Of a stretch of 64,000 nt of DNA, positions 440 to 34,277 are shown one piece after another. How positions within the stretch are numbered: position 1 is the stretch's first letter; the number at the start of each line of letters is the position of its first letter. Under the pieces are notes generated by a model. It made no database searches and was not told where the DNA came from. It saw only the letters and a list, made by a program, of their open reading frames with translations. The position numbers and the translations under genes were made by a program. The stretch comes from Liquorilactobacillus nagelii DSM 13675 (GTDB taxonomy: Bacteria > Bacillota > Bacilli > Lactobacillales > Lactobacillaceae): assembly GCF_019444005.1 (NCBI RefSeq), contig NZ_CP049304.1, forward strand, positions 1,922,001-1,986,000, read 5' to 3'.

Positions 440-1552
440 TCAATCCAATTCTTTTTCAACCGTTACTAAAGCTGCACCAATCACTTGATCCATATTATAG
501 TAACGATATTGTCCTAATCGACCACCGAAAATGATATTATCGGCTTTTGCATCGGCCAACTCTTTGTATTTTTTGTATAAAGCATTATTAGCGGAGTTAT
601 TGACTGGATAATACGGTTCATCCCCGCGATGCCAAGTTTTAGGATACTCACGGGTAATAATTGTTTTGTTCTTATCGCCTTTACCAAACTCAAAATGTTT
701 GTGCTCAATAATTCGAGTAAAAGGCGTTTTGGCATCGGTATAGTTCACGACTGCATTTCCTTGGAAATTATCTTGGTCAAGTTCTTCGGTTTCAAACTTC
801 AAACTGCGGTATTCCAGTTCACCATAACAGTAATCAAAATACTGATCAATCATCCCGGTAAACACTACTTTATCATAATTTTTAAGATACTCATCCTGAT
901 TGTTAAAGAAGTCGATGCCAGTCTCAACCGTGATTAAATCACTACTCAGCATCTTCTCAACAATTTGAGTATAACCGCCAATCGGAATTCCTTGATAAGG
1001 ATCATTAAAATAGTTATTATCATAGGTCAAACGCACCGGCAGGCGACGAATGATAAACGCTGGTAAATCTTTAGCTGAGCGACCCCACTGTTTTTCAGTA
1101 TAGCCCTTAATTAGTTTTTGATAAATATCAGTACCAACCAGTGAAATGGCTTGTTCTTCTAGATTTTCTGGCTTTTTCCCCTGTAAAACAGCTCGCTGTT
1201 CATCAATTTTAGCCAAAGCTTCTTGCGGCGTAACTACTCCCCAAAGTTTATTGAAAGTATTCATATTAAATGGTAAGTTATAAATTTCACCAAGATAGTT
1301 TGCAATGGGTGTATTGGTATACCGATTAAAGTCAGCAAACTGATGAACATAATCCCAAATTTTTTTATTAGCTGTATGGAAGATGTGTGCTCCATATTGA
1401 TGAACTTGAATTCCAGCAACTTCCTTAGTGTAAATATTACCGGCAATATGATTTCTTTTTTCAATTACCTTTACTTGATTGCCACGTTTAGCTGCCTCAT
1501 AAGCAAAAGTTGCGCCAAACAGGCCAGCACCTACTACTAAATATTTTTTCAT
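440..1552 (-). CDS. glf: UDP-galactopyranose mutase
   Basis: Flavoenzyme that interconverts UDP-galactopyranose and UDP-galactofuranose, the donor for galactofuranose residues in surface polysaccharide. The 370 residues begin with the FAD-binding fold (VVGAGLFGATFAYEAAKRG, about residues 6-24), followed by the family motifs HQYGAHIFHT (about 51-60) and the KQWGR and RLPVR region (about 154-173). The C-terminal GGRLGQYRYYNMDQVIGAAL segment is typical of Glf. Length matches the family. The start has GAGGTG 6 bases upstream. Its place beside a probable galactofuranosyltransferase (3719-4744) indicates that the polymer made here contains Galf. Confidence 0.95.
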   Translation of the reverse strand: MKKYLVVGAGLFGATFAYEAAKRGNQVKVIEKRNHIAGNIYTKEVAGIQVHQYGAHIFHTANKKIWDYVHQFADFNRYTNTPIANYLGEIYNLPFNMNTFNKLWGVVTPQEALAKIDEQRAVLQGKKPENLEEQAISLVGTDIYQKLIKGYTEKQWGRSAKDLPAFIIRRLPVRLTYDNNYFNDPYQGIPIGGYTQIVEKMLSSDLITVETGIDFFNNQDEYLKNYDKVVFTGMIDQYFDYCYGELEYRSLKFETEELDQDNFQGNAVVNYTDAKTPFTRIIEHKHFEFGKGDKNKTIITREYPKTWHRGDEPYYPVNNSANNALYKKYKELADAKADNIIFGGRLGQYRYYNMDQVIGAALVTVEKELD

Positions 1553-1593
1553 TTTTTCACCTCATTATAAAATTTAGGAGTTCAACCTGCTGG

Positions 1594-2559
1594 TTAAAAT
1601 CCTTTCCCACCTAAAATAAAAAATGTATCCGATAAAATTCTCCGACCTGTTGTTCCTTGATGCGGCAGATATCGCTTGACAAATTGCATTCGCTTTAATT
1701 TTGAACCATTTAATGCTTGATATACGGCCAATAACGACTGTTTAGATTGTCCATCATCAAGGTCATCAATAAACAGCCGATAGAGTTGGTTAATTTGTCT
1801 AACTGGCAATGATTTTATCGGCCAACTTTTATCAGACCATTTGCGCTGTAAATTTGCTATTTTCTTGTTCAACTTACTAGAACGCAAAACTGCAAAAAAA
1901 TCTTGTCCACCATATTGATTATTACCATGTTGCCGGTATTTAATCAGTGGCTCATTCACAAAAGCTATTTTTCCTAGTAATGCAGCTACTAAAGCTAGCC
2001 AATGATCATGCAAAAAAACATCTTTTAAATCAGCTCGACATGCATACTTTTTTAAATTGTTATCAACCATAACCGTGCAACCAGTTATATTATTAAAAAA
2101 AACAATTGACAATAAATCATGCGGACGTTGTTCCAACGATGGAGCGTGCAATAAGTTTAGTTTCCGATCCACAATCAATTTATTAGTATGTACTAAAAGA
2201 GGTGTAGCAGAATCATTTTGTTTTCTTAATTCTAACATAGCTGTTAGTGTAGCAGTTATTTTTGTTGGCAACCATACGTCATCTTGATCGCAAAACATAT
2301 AAAAGTCTGCTTGGATATTTCGAAAAAGTTCAAAAAAAGAACCGACCACACCGAGGTTTTCTCCATGCTTTCTCTGATATAAATGGACTCGTTCATCATT
2401 TTGTTGATACTTTTTAATAATCTTTAAAGTGTCATCCGTTGAACCATCATCGCGAATATATAGATTCCAATCTTGATCTGTTTGCTGTTGAATTGACTCA
2501 AGTTGCAACGGTAAATATTCTTGACCATTATAAGTTGACATTAAAATTGCAATTTTCAT
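1594..2559 (-). CDS. Glycosyltransferase family 2 (rhamnosyltransferase-like)
   Basis: A 321-residue GT-A fold enzyme predicted to add a sugar to the lipid-linked repeat unit at the cytoplasmic membrane. The N-terminal MSTYNGQEYLPLQLESIQQQ and RDDGSTDDT motifs (about residues 8-44) and DQDDVW (about 91-96, the metal-binding acidic motif) are classic GT2 signatures. The pattern resembles bacterial rhamnosyl- and galactosyltransferases of exopolysaccharide clusters; the actual sugar cannot be read from the sequence. The start codon overlaps the stop of the upstream gene by four bases (ATGA, 2556-2559), which implies translational coupling. Confidence 0.85.
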   Translation of the reverse strand: MKIAILMSTYNGQEYLPLQLESIQQQTDQDWNLYIRDDGSTDDTLKIIKKYQQNDERVHLYQRKHGENLGVVGSFFELFRNIQADFYMFCDQDDVWLPTKITATLTAMLELRKQNDSATPLLVHTNKLIVDRKLNLLHAPSLEQRPHDLLSIVFFNNITGCTVMVDNNLKKYACRADLKDVFLHDHWLALVAALLGKIAFVNEPLIKYRQHGNNQYGGQDFFAVLRSSKLNKKIANLQRKWSDKSWPIKSLPVRQINQLYRLFIDDLDDGQSKQSLLAVYQALNGSKLKRMQFVKRYLPHQGTTGRRILSDTFFILGGKGF

Positions 2560-32590: not shown

Positions 32591-32707
32591 CTGTTGAAAC
32601 TAGCCAGTCTTAGCTAAAAAACAGCTTTTCTAATTACCTAACTTCCTCCTTTAGAATAAGTATTTTCAAAGTTTTTTCACTAAAATGTAATTTTTATTGA
32701 AAAAAGG

Positions 32708-32737
32708 CTTGTAATTTTAATTTTACAAGCTATAATG
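32708..32737 (+). promoter_or_regulatory. Promoter with overlapping palindrome, for the branched-chain leader and EIIC gene
   Basis: TTGTAA (32710-32715) and TATAAT (32732-32737) are separated by 16 bases. A perfect inverted repeat GCTTGTAA-N8-TTACAAGC (32708-32731) covers the -35 and the whole spacer, so a repressor could sit there. Transcription would start near 32744. Confidence 0.7.
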
Positions 32738-32785
32738 TGTTTAACGATTATCAAGTTGAATTCAGATTAAAGGAGGTTGGGTAGC

Positions 32786-32896
32786 ATGTCGTCTACATCT
32801 CAAAAGTACTTGAACAGTAATGTTGCAGTTCAATATCTAGTGAGCCTAGTCATTATTAGCACGCGCGATGTGCTACTCAATGTCTCGGCTAATTAA
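32786..32896 (+). CDS. Branched-chain amino-acid leader peptide
   Basis: A 36-codon ORF with AGGAGG 9 bases before the ATG. Thirteen of 36 residues are Leu, Val or Ile, concentrated in the QYLVSLVIISTRDVLL stretch. It ends just before two tandem terminators. The composition resembles ilv-type leader peptides. The codons of TRDV lie in a hairpin AGCAC-N7-GTGCT (32858-32874), and the loop GCGCGATG is the exact complement of the left arm of terminator 1. This makes it a peptide-controlled attenuator of the downstream carrier gene. Confidence 0.75.
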   Translation: MSSTSQKYLNSNVAVQYLVSLVIISTRDVLLNVSAN

Positions 32897-32911
32897 AATG
32901 CATTGACACTG

Positions 32912-32955
32912 AAAACCATCGCGCTTAAGCAAGCTTAACTTAAAGCGATGGTTTT
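32912..32955 (+). terminator. Attenuator terminator 1
   Basis: AAACCATCGC (32913-32922) pairs with GCGATGGTTT (32945-32954) and the stem is followed by T residues. CATCGCGC (32917-32924) is also complementary to GCGCGATG (32863-32870) inside the leader ORF, so the two structures are mutually exclusive. Confidence 0.8.
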
Positions 32956-32970
32956 TTTCTATTTTTAGCA

Positions 32971-33010
32971 GCACCCATCGTTTTAGCTTTAAAACGATGG
33001 GTGCTTTTTA
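32971..33010 (+). terminator. Attenuator terminator 2
   Basis: A perfect 14-base stem (32971-32984 with 32991-33004) around a six-base loop, followed by TTTTT. It directly follows terminator 1 and lies about 185 bases before the carrier gene. Confidence 0.85.
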
Positions 33011-33194
33011 ATTTTTCTCTCACTTAATCAATTCAATAATCGTCTTAAAGGAGGGATCATTTCAAATTACTTGCATAGCTTTTTAGATGTTATTAAATAT
33101 CTTTTAACTTAATTAATCGATAATAGGGGATCGGTTAACTTCAGTTATCAGATATAGTTCAGGCTCAATTGGCTAACTAAGGGGGATTTGTTTA

Positions 33195-34277
33195 ATGGAA
33201 AACACTGCTACTGCTCATACTACAACTGTCAAAGAGTACGCTTATCGGATTTGTGCTGCTGTTGCAAATGCTATTTTGGTAACACTTGGCATTGGTTTAT
33301 TACTTCAGACGTTGGCTTCCTTTATTCATTGGAATGCACTTTACCAAGTCGGAATCATTGCCAATGAGCTGCTAGCTCCAGCTCTTGGTGTCGCAATTGC
33401 TTCTCAGTTAGAAACCAATTCATTAGTTATTTTTAGTGCTATGATTTCTTCAACTATTGGTGCTAACGCAGTTCATTTTACATCTGCTGCCGTTAATGGC
33501 ACTACTGCCACCGGTTCATCATTGATGCAGGCTGCTGGCAGTACCGTTTTTGCCACCGGTCAGCCTGTCAGTGCTGTCTTAGCTGGGCTAATTGCAGCTT
33601 TAGTCGGAAAGTACTTAACCGGGAAAACACCTTTAGACATGATGCTGGTGCCTTTAACAGCAACCTTAATTGGTGGAGTTTCTGGATTAGGACTAGCAGC
33701 AGTTACAACACCATTATTACTGAATGTGAGTGCTTTTATTGCTAAAACCATGCAAATTAATCCATTAGTTGGTTCAATTTCCGTTTCACTTGTTTGGGCC
33801 TTATTCTTAATGACTCCAGCATCTTCAGCGGCTTTGGCTATTGCTTTAACACTTGATCCAATTTCATCAGCCGCTGCCTTGATTGGAACAACTTCACAAT
33901 TTGTCGCTTTTACAGCCATGTCATTCCGCCAAAACAATCTAGGTGCTAATATTGCTCAAGGTGTAATGACACCTAAAGTACAATTTCCTAATTTGCTAGT
34001 AAATCCGTTACTGTTAGTTCCTTCATTGTTATCAGCAATTGTCTGTGCCCCAGTGGCAACAATTTTGTTTGGCTTTCGTTCAACCTATAAGCTGGCAGGA
34101 TTGGGTTTGAACTCATTTATTGCTCCTTTAGCATATGCAGCACAAGGATGGGGATCCTTCGCAGTTTACATGCTGACTGGAGTTATATTACCAGCAGTTA
34201 TTTCTCTGACTGCCTACGGTATGATGAAAAAAGCTGGTTTGATTCAAGATAATCAGCTTCATTTGGAAATTGTTTAA
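33195..34277 (+). CDS. PTS_EIIC_2-family membrane carrier
   Basis: A 360-residue protein with about nine hydrophobic segments, belonging to the EIIC-like family that occurs without EIIA or EIIB partners; no phosphorylation domain is present. The central FMTPASSAALAIAL and TSQFVAFTAMSFRQNNLGANIAQG segments are characteristic. A GGGGG site 9 bases before the ATG supports the start. It is the only gene downstream of the branched-chain leader and ends before a bidirectional terminator. Its substrate is unknown; the leader makes branched-chain amino acids or their precursors the best guess. Confidence 0.8.
   Translation: MENTATAHTTTVKEYAYRICAAVANAILVTLGIGLLLQTLASFIHWNALYQVGIIANELLAPALGVAIASQLETNSLVIFSAMISSTIGANAVHFTSAAVNGTTATGSSLMQAAGSTVFATGQPVSAVLAGLIAALVGKYLTGKTPLDMMLVPLTATLIGGVSGLGLAAVTTPLLLNVSAFIAKTMQINPLVGSISVSLVWALFLMTPASSAALAIALTLDPISSAAALIGTTSQFVAFTAMSFRQNNLGANIAQGVMTPKVQFPNLLVNPLLLVPSLLSAIVCAPVATILFGFRSTYKLAGLGLNSFIAPLAYAAQGWGSFAVYMLTGVILPAVISLTAYGMMKKAGLIQDNQLHLEIV

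Follow-up and report, generated by a model that had tools for sequence, protein, structure and literature searches.

What is the leader in front of an isolated membrane-carrier gene in Liquorilactobacillus nagelii DSM 13675, and what does that carrier move? The window analyzed here is a 64,000-nt stretch from this 2.56-Mb Liquorilactobacillus genome (G000), and the locus lies at positions 32,708 to 34,277 of it. An earlier note had read the locus as a leader-peptide attenuator responding to branched-chain amino acids (BCAAs), listing a promoter, an AGGAGG, an open reading frame (ORF), a complementarity between a hairpin and a terminator arm, two tandem terminators (T1 and T2) and a carrier; all of these were found where it had placed them. 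We consider it quite probable that transcription here is attenuated by a ribosome-mediated mechanism in which the charging of Leu-, Val- and Ile-tRNAs is sensed, and that the gene under control is a PF13303 carrier for BCAA supply. The pairing structures have comparative support; the dynamics of the switch and the substrate of the carrier are what we infer from sequence. The features of the locus are as follows.

32709..32736 (+): promoter, -35 TTGTAA, 16-nt spacing, -10 TATAAT; similar promoters precede other leaders (by eye)
32771-32776 (+): AGGAGG before the leader ORF
32774..32790 (+): region A, the leader's ribosome-binding/start region, which pairs with region B (32862-32878); A:B occurs in 23 leaders and covaries
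32786..32896 (+): predicted leader-peptide ORF of 36 codons, MSSTSQKYLNSNVAVQYLVSLVIISTRDVLLNVSAN; 13 of 36 residues are Leu, Val or Ile
32843..32890 (+): protector (anti-antiterminator) hairpin P1, containing AGCAC-N7-GTGCT (32858-32874); both helices paired in 98.2% of cells
32846..32857 (+): control codons CTA GTC ATT ATT (Leu Val Ile Ile), mostly within the 5' arm of P1
32863..32884 (+): region B, GCGCGATG followed by CAATGTC, which forms the antiterminator's 5' arm; its changes are compensated in region C
32905..32924 (+): region C, serving both as the antiterminator's 3' arm and as the left arm of T1, by comparative pairing
32911..32956 (+): hairpin/terminator T1 (C:D), by comparative pairing
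32970..33005 (+): terminator T2 (E:F), whose left arm could also pair with T1's right arm (D:E)
33045..33063 (+): TTAAAGGAGGGATCATTTC, resembling an abandoned ribosome-binding site of a branched-chain aminotransferase (BCAT) gene, by eye against AAGGAGGAAT..ATG of relatives
33195..34277 (+): EIIC-like membrane carrier of 360 aa, PF13303 (PTS_EIIC_2), E 2.2e-75

Within the window, GCGCGATG (32863-32870) complements CATCGCGC (32917-32924) as the earlier note had seen, with the correction that the final G of GCGCGATG belongs to the stem and not to the hairpin loop. The AGCAC-N7-GTGCT hairpin is likewise present, but only as the inner part of the larger P1, whose arms (AGCC.AG.CATT / AATG.CT.GGCT, by RNAalifold) enclose the control codons. 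When the free RNA is folded, 32862-32878 pairs with region A, a stem that would close the leader's own start site. The 268-nt leader folds with z = -6.8 (0/200 shuffles were equally stable), and its 26-nt core found no match in 100 shuffled windows. The palindrome reported at the promoter exists as an inverted repeat over 32707-32730 (8-bp arms, 8-nt spacer); as a candidate operator it was rejected, being present in none of the 22 other leaders compared, and it is probably incidental.

To follow the leader across the genus, we searched 14 Liquorilactobacillus genomes for its core (back-translated LVIISTRDV, up to 3 mismatches). The pattern was present in all 14, in 27 places compared with 11 for a reversed control pattern; 22 of these places are leaders, and the other five (L126, L132-L135) were excluded as unlike the core. 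Leader ORF, antiterminator and both terminator hairpins were found in every one of the 14 genomes, with compensatory changes. Fourteen of the 22 leaders stand before the carrier operon and eight before a peptide-binding protein gene (oppA). A 23rd leader (L138), from genus g23 of the same family, lies directly before the same carrier. Three 3-mismatch matches (L136, L137, L139) were treated as chance. A run of Leu, Val and Ile is present in the predicted ORF of all 23 leaders, CCTAGTCATTATTA is nearly invariant among them (more distant leaders differ there), and the peptide's N-terminal half differs from leader to leader in both sequence and length. The earlier note had proposed conservation upstream of carrier homologues as its test: the leader is conserved there throughout the genus and in three g23 genomes, and most homologues elsewhere are without it. 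A broadened covariance model of the leader (R2), run on 395 genomes drawn from the order, matched in three, all Lactobacillaceae and one of them the window's own, so that the element appears local to Lactobacillaceae in this sample.

Beside P1, four pairings recur: A:B, B:C (the antiterminator), C:D (T1) and E:F (T2). We assessed their covariation by comparing duplex energies of cognate and non-cognate strands, with permutations within each class of leader. Among 13 distinct carrier-operon leaders all four were cognate-favored (0/10000 permutations each), and among the eight oppA leaders the counts were 23 for A:B, 6 for B:C, 12 for C:D and 0 for E:F of 10000. A control pairing, A:C, showed no cognate preference (1815/10000 in the carrier class, 3085/10000 in the oppA class). 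In an alignment of 22 of the 23 leaders (A3; L115, near-identical to L114, was omitted), the antiterminator was paired in 86.7% of cells (97.2% and 74.7% in its two helices) with 5 pairs changed on both sides, a number reached in 0/500 shuffles; P1 together with T1 was paired in 97.5% of cells, with 4 pairs changed on both sides (4/500 shuffles).

We ran a covariance model built from 22 leaders (R1) across 397 Lactobacillaceae genomes and obtained 38 matches in 19 of them, comprising the 23 known leaders (22 of them used in training) and 15 new ones; a reverse-strand match in L127 (E 0.0061) was treated as spurious. The genes behind them, identified mostly by eye with Pfam run on ten proteins, were ilvB-C operons (10), BCAT (13), the carrier directly (5), oppA (8) and a carrier of the BASS/SBF family (2). 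Within the genus these divide into 14 carrier operons (11 that open with BCAT and 3 with the carrier itself), 8 oppA genes, 8 ilvB-C operons and 2 BASS/SBF carriers, and outside it into 2 ilvB-C operons, 1 BCAT, 1 BCAT then carrier, and 2 carriers directly. For one ilv operon (L182), Pfam identified acetolactate synthase, ketol-acid reductoisomerase, threonine dehydratase, RidA and SBF proteins. It also identified both the carrier and the aminotransferase of L190, the SBF carrier of L191 and, in the one peptide-binding protein tested, SBP_bac_5; the other peptide-binding proteins were assigned by sequence likeness. An alignment of the whole set (A5) held 33 of the 38 leaders, with L114, L115, L120, L123 and L192 omitted as near-duplicates.

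The ilv leaders carry denser control runs (e.g. VILLIVLVIII) and the same A:B and B:C pairings, which covaried in the 10 of them (A:B 190/10000, B:C 2/10000; A:C control 4644/10000), with a different C-terminal peptide, which counts against peptide-specific arrest. Nine of the 14 genus genomes have ilvD, and eight of these nine also have an ilv leader (in one of the eight, G010, ilvD is on the opposite strand). A:B and B:C were seen in the 15 further leaders as well; automatic T1/T2 assignment was wrong for several of these (e.g. L184-L187, L189), and we used only A:B and B:C there, B:C with caution as the C stretch was cut by the wrong assignment. The two leaders of the BASS carriers (L191, L192) pair most weakly (A:B -8.8 kcal/mol, B:C -14.9). 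That the same element heads ilv operons, on which BCAA attenuators classically act and which Pfam confirmed in one case, supports the proposal of a BCAA attenuator beyond the composition of the peptide alone, and the matches outline a Liquorilactobacillus BCAA regulon of synthesis, aminotransferase and dehydrogenase, peptide uptake and two carriers.

We also surveyed 80 loci of carrier homologues, 12 from Liquorilactobacillus (L026-L037; L037 is labeled Lactobacillus sp. and two are L. mali) and 68 from elsewhere. A recognizable BCAA sensor was present at 29 of the 80, including the 12 Liquorilactobacillus loci. Of the 12 Leuconostoc loci, one (L094) is incomplete; the other 11 carry a leader of 21-22 codons that ends in INVVII(I/M/T)-stop or something close to it, and at ten of these a terminator-like hairpin also precedes the carrier. 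Similar ORFs were found at one locus each in Fructobacillus (NIIVAIIIIT), Jeotgalibaca (SVIILLIEP) and an Erysipelotrichaceae metagenome-assembled genome (STIVVLIL). At three Ligilactobacillus loci the carrier is immediately preceded by a T-box (E 2.8e-12, 1e-8 and 6e-15 in a targeted search, with bits below the Rfam gathering score), whose specifier position, judged by eye in the alignments, reads CUC (Leu) each time. The leader model had no match at eight loci with other sensors (L048, L068, L069, L083, L095, L099, L102, L104). A generic leader scan of the 450 nt upstream of the carrier was positive at 20/80 loci compared with 4.7 in shuffles, and the hits at L030, L037, L042, L060 and L063 look fortuitous. 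In Liquorilactobacillus, the leader of the ten loci that have BCAT lies beyond the scanned 450 nt, so these were judged by the core motif instead, and the L091 leader was counted from a separate inspection of leaders. CodY boxes (up to 3 mismatches, 300 nt upstream) were found at 10/80 loci compared with about 4 in shuffles, none of these ten being a Liquorilactobacillus locus; CodY control of the carriers was set aside, as this is only a weak excess.

How might the switch work? When tRNAs are charged, the ribosome would pass CTA GTC ATT ATT, and P1 and/or A:B would hold region B; C would then pair with D (T1) and E with F (T2), and transcription would end. When a BCAA tRNA is uncharged, the ribosome would stall on the 5' arm of P1. 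The distance from start to control codons is 48-72 nt in the 23 leaders, leaving room for a second ribosome, which could sit on region A during the stall. B would then pair with C and T1 would not form; freed D may pair with E and disarm T2, and the carrier would be transcribed. In an untranslated leader, A:B would keep B closed, making off the default. We masked ribosome footprints (28 nt, assumed) and folded the transcript as far as the T1 loop. When an initiating ribosome was included, the expected number of B:C pairs in the window was 17.9 for a leading ribosome at either CTA or GTC; it fell to 15.9 and then 12.2 on the two Ile codons, and was 8.1 one codon further on and 8.7 on the stop codon. 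The mean over 23 leaders moved in the same direction, from 22.1 at CTA to 11.2 at the stop. If the initiating ribosome was left out, the window gave 0.4 B:C pairs with a ribosome at the stop codon and 1.4 as free RNA.

The second terminator deserves separate consideration. All 14 carrier-operon leaders have 6 or more consecutive T behind the first hairpin. In the eight oppA leaders and L138 this run reaches 4 T at most (4 in L116, at most 2 in the others); T2 must therefore be the working terminator there, and for this reason we considered a relay through D:E. This pairing could form in all 23 leaders (-9.3 to -18.0 kcal/mol) and covaries in the oppA class only (108/10000), so we offer the relay as a hypothesis. 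Disarming of T2 by a direct B:E pairing, which we also tried, had no support in the carrier class (7335/10000) and some in the oppA class (61/10000). The window genome itself has a second copy of the leader at G000:C1:1822039-1822146 (L107, L116), preceding an SBP_bac_5 peptide-binding protein gene. The first hairpin of this copy is followed only by a short TTTT three bases on, and T2 is probably its terminator.

Several results weigh against this account. The permutations ignore kinship. Further pair types were no more frequent than in shuffles (125/500 for the antiterminator, 192/500 for P1+T1), and the outer stem of P1 showed no covariation in the within-class test, because its arms hardly vary. 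When classes were pooled, off-model pairings scored too (B:E 3/5000, C:F 41/5000); pooling is unsafe, and only within-class figures count. D:E had no cognate preference in the carrier class (3098/10000). The masked folding describes equilibrium only, and in it a lone ribosome at CTA gave only 3.3 B:C pairs in the window, while free RNA formed B:C in many leaders (mean 13.2). An initiating ribosome alone already gave 17.9 pairs in the window, with P1 not prevailing over B:C; at equilibrium A:B, not P1, therefore restrains B in the window, and P1 would need to act kinetically. These folding figures thus agree with the proposed switch in direction only, and because of the last of them we hold the whole account slightly less firmly, at the quite probable level given above. 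Finally, at 51 of the 80 surveyed loci, from Lactiplantibacillus, Secundilactobacillus, Lentilactobacillus, Terribacillus and other genera, no BCAA sensor was recognized before the carrier (two of them, L040 and L094, have less than 300 nt of upstream sequence), so the link between carrier and BCAAs is not universal.

Next, we characterized the carrier and its neighbors. The protein matches PF13303 over residues 18-356 of 360 (254 bits, cut-off 28.9), its closest named relative is from L. ghanensis (93%), and a search of PDB sequences returned no relative at E up to 1. The earlier note had called it an orphan without partners of the phosphotransferase system (PTS). It is an orphan in the window and its nearest relatives, but by lineage loss, as other relatives keep BCAT and a dehydrogenase. 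The order leader, BCAT, carrier, dehydrogenase was found in 11/14 genus genomes (in genome searches, BCAT after the leader in 11/14 and dehydrogenase after the carrier in 12/14), and 10 of the 12 surveyed Liquorilactobacillus loci have the three genes in order. The L. sicerae locus is without BCAT, and those of L. ghanensis and the window are without both. Relatives' operons held no PTS partner; PTS proteins elsewhere in the genome were not searched. Three of the BCATs were named by NCBIfam above cut-off. The dehydrogenase has as its best PDB match 1hyh, L-2-hydroxyisocaproate dehydrogenase (292 bits; the next, L-lactate dehydrogenase, 187) and falls below the NCBIfam cut-offs for L-lactate and malate dehydrogenases; by sequence it is L-2-hydroxyisocaproate-dehydrogenase-like (HicDH), closer to 1hyh than to L-lactate dehydrogenase. 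Across the survey BCAT adjoins the carrier at 21/80 loci. Outside the genus it does so at 11/68, namely at 9/12 Leuconostoc loci, in Jeotgalibaca and, on the opposite strand, in Secundilactobacillus malefermentans. In Neobacillus, an L-lactate dehydrogenase adjoins the carrier.

The ancestral operon was likely leader-BCAT-carrier-HicDH, and TTAAAGGAGGGATCATTTC resembles a remnant of the ribosome-binding site that the vanished aminotransferase gene would have had. At the carrier locus the window's lineage has lost both BCAT and HicDH, and it keeps another such pair elsewhere: a different BCAT (57%) directly followed by an L-HicDH-like gene (C1:115026-116970, L152), before which we recognized no leader or T-box. 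A related BCAT in G008 (L154) has an upstream T-box whose specifier position reads AUC (Ile), while the T-box of L151 lies behind its BCAT, not before. In addition, 11 of the 14 genus genomes carry a second relative of the carrier, 26-28% identical (L015-L025).

What, then, does the carrier move? A genome search limited, among the ilv and leu genes, to ilvD found none in the window genome, and starvation should turn the operon on; for these reasons the carrier would probably import BCAAs or, more likely, their 2-keto or 2-hydroxy acids. Of the substrates suggested by the earlier note, BCAAs and keto acids gain from BCAT at 21 of the 80 loci, in part from HicDH and from the other BCAA sensors, and nothing was found favoring dipeptides. 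Given the co-inheritance with HicDH and BCAT, the starvation switch and the missing ilvD, salvage reads best: imported 2-hydroxy and 2-keto acids would be oxidized by HicDH and aminated by BCAT to give BCAAs. In full, this reading makes the carrier's branch of PF13303 a PTS-free, starvation-induced importer of branched-chain 2-hydroxy/2-keto acids tied to HicDH/BCAT salvage. At least three control devices would then have been placed over it, namely a relay attenuator that closes its own start site, leaders of the Leuconostoc type and Leu T-boxes, and the BASS carrier would be its functional counterpart; we put this forward tentatively, as slightly less likely to hold than to fail. Import of BCAAs themselves is the simplest alternative to salvage.

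The same attenuator could serve transport in the opposite direction, with the carrier exporting 2-hydroxy/2-keto acids, or exchanging them for BCAAs, at the end of BCAA breakdown. Lactic acid bacteria, in the textbook view, break BCAAs down through BCAT and L-2-hydroxyisocaproate dehydrogenase, and that pair shares the carrier's operon in relatives. However, a BCAA-starvation switch would start breakdown just when BCAAs are scarce, and the identical switch precedes ilv synthesis and oppA genes; we consider export unlikely. Should the salvage reading hold, BCAT plus HicDH in lactic acid bacteria, customarily regarded as a breakdown route, would be seen as serving supply under starvation.

The remaining alternatives concern the leader. 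It might encode an arrest peptide that senses another molecule (an antibiotic or substrate) and not tRNA charging, as the conservation of YLVSLVIISTRDVL.NVSA within one class could suggest; yet the C-terminus differs by class (STRDVLLNVSAN, MRVCDLMPGLI, MMHDASSNISAN) while A:B and B:C persist, the N-terminal half is variable, and all 38 matches precede ilv operons, BCAT, the carrier, oppA or a BASS carrier, leaving arrest very improbable. We give just as slight a chance to an independent small RNA or small-protein gene ending at T1/T2, with a carrier promoter between T2 and 33195. The 190-nt gap from T2 to the carrier start in the window would allow one, but in 11 relatives BCAT starts about 175 nt behind the core, shortly after T2, mutually exclusive pairings covary, and the element recurs before the same small set of genes. 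As T-boxes precede carrier homologues in Ligilactobacillus, a T-box or another known riboswitch class was considered too; but the window has no Rfam match at gathering thresholds, and the 700 nt before the carrier contain no T-box bulge motif at any of the 12 Liquorilactobacillus loci, so it is hardly credible here.

The preferred reading, a ribosome-mediated attenuator, has known counterparts. T-boxes bind tRNA directly and do not need leader translation, unlike the element proposed here; T-box leaders with BCAA specifiers resemble it in their targets, preceding the carrier at the three Ligilactobacillus loci and BCAT in L154. Corynebacterium glutamicum belongs to a different phylum. Its three-hairpin ilvBNC attenuator shares the logic of terminator, antiterminator and anti-antiterminator, and the abstract mentions no tandem terminator (PMC11857589). 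BCAA leader-peptide attenuators are established in enterics; there are reports of them for S. aureus and L. monocytogenes, while for Lactococcus, Streptococcus and Corynebacterium they are predicted (PMC5794164, PMC6123439, PMC11857589). The E. coli ilvGMEDA, ilvBN and leuABCD attenuators are alike in having a BCAA-rich leader ORF, an antiterminator and a terminator and in heading ilv operons (PMC6123439). The window element may differ from them in its start-site stem, and it differs in its two tandem hairpins with shared complementary arms and in targets that include a PF13303 carrier, oppA and a BASS carrier. The S. aureus ilv-leu attenuator is likewise Gram-positive, ribosome-mediated and built of leader peptide, antiterminator and terminator hairpin; its leader has 26 aa and is reported to act with CodY, and the excerpted source mentions no carrier operon (PMC5794164).

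The element is thus a variant of known BCAA attenuators with a start-site-closing stem and, possibly, a hairpin relay. The literature searched contained no description of the regulon, the operon, the leader or a BCAA role for PF13303, and that search did not cover start-site stems or relays. Although the carrier matches the PTS_EIIC_2 family along its length, its regulation and neighbors point to BCAA metabolism, not sugars. A carrier family without a function in that literature is now tied to the BCAA nutrient class by three largely independent lines: an attenuator shared with ilv operons, operon partners, and other BCAA sensors elsewhere. The attenuator is also compact and suited to plasmid-reporter testing.

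The BASS/SBF carrier is a candidate branched-chain keto-acid carrier. In Liquorilactobacillus it follows ilvD on the same strand in six ilv operons (L182, L185, L193-L196), and two L. mali genomes have it by itself, with a BCAA leader of its own in front (L191 2973-3947; L192); PF01758 was found in the two of these carriers tested, those of L182 and L191. In Terribacillus a BASS-like gene (L086 4125-5069; below NCBIfam cut-offs) follows the PF13303 carrier. Finally, the Ligilactobacillus salitolerans locus (L048; features at 1372-1613 (-) and 160-229) has a group II intron match as well as a divergent T-box, with AUC at the specifier position, that adjoins the carrier's own T-box.

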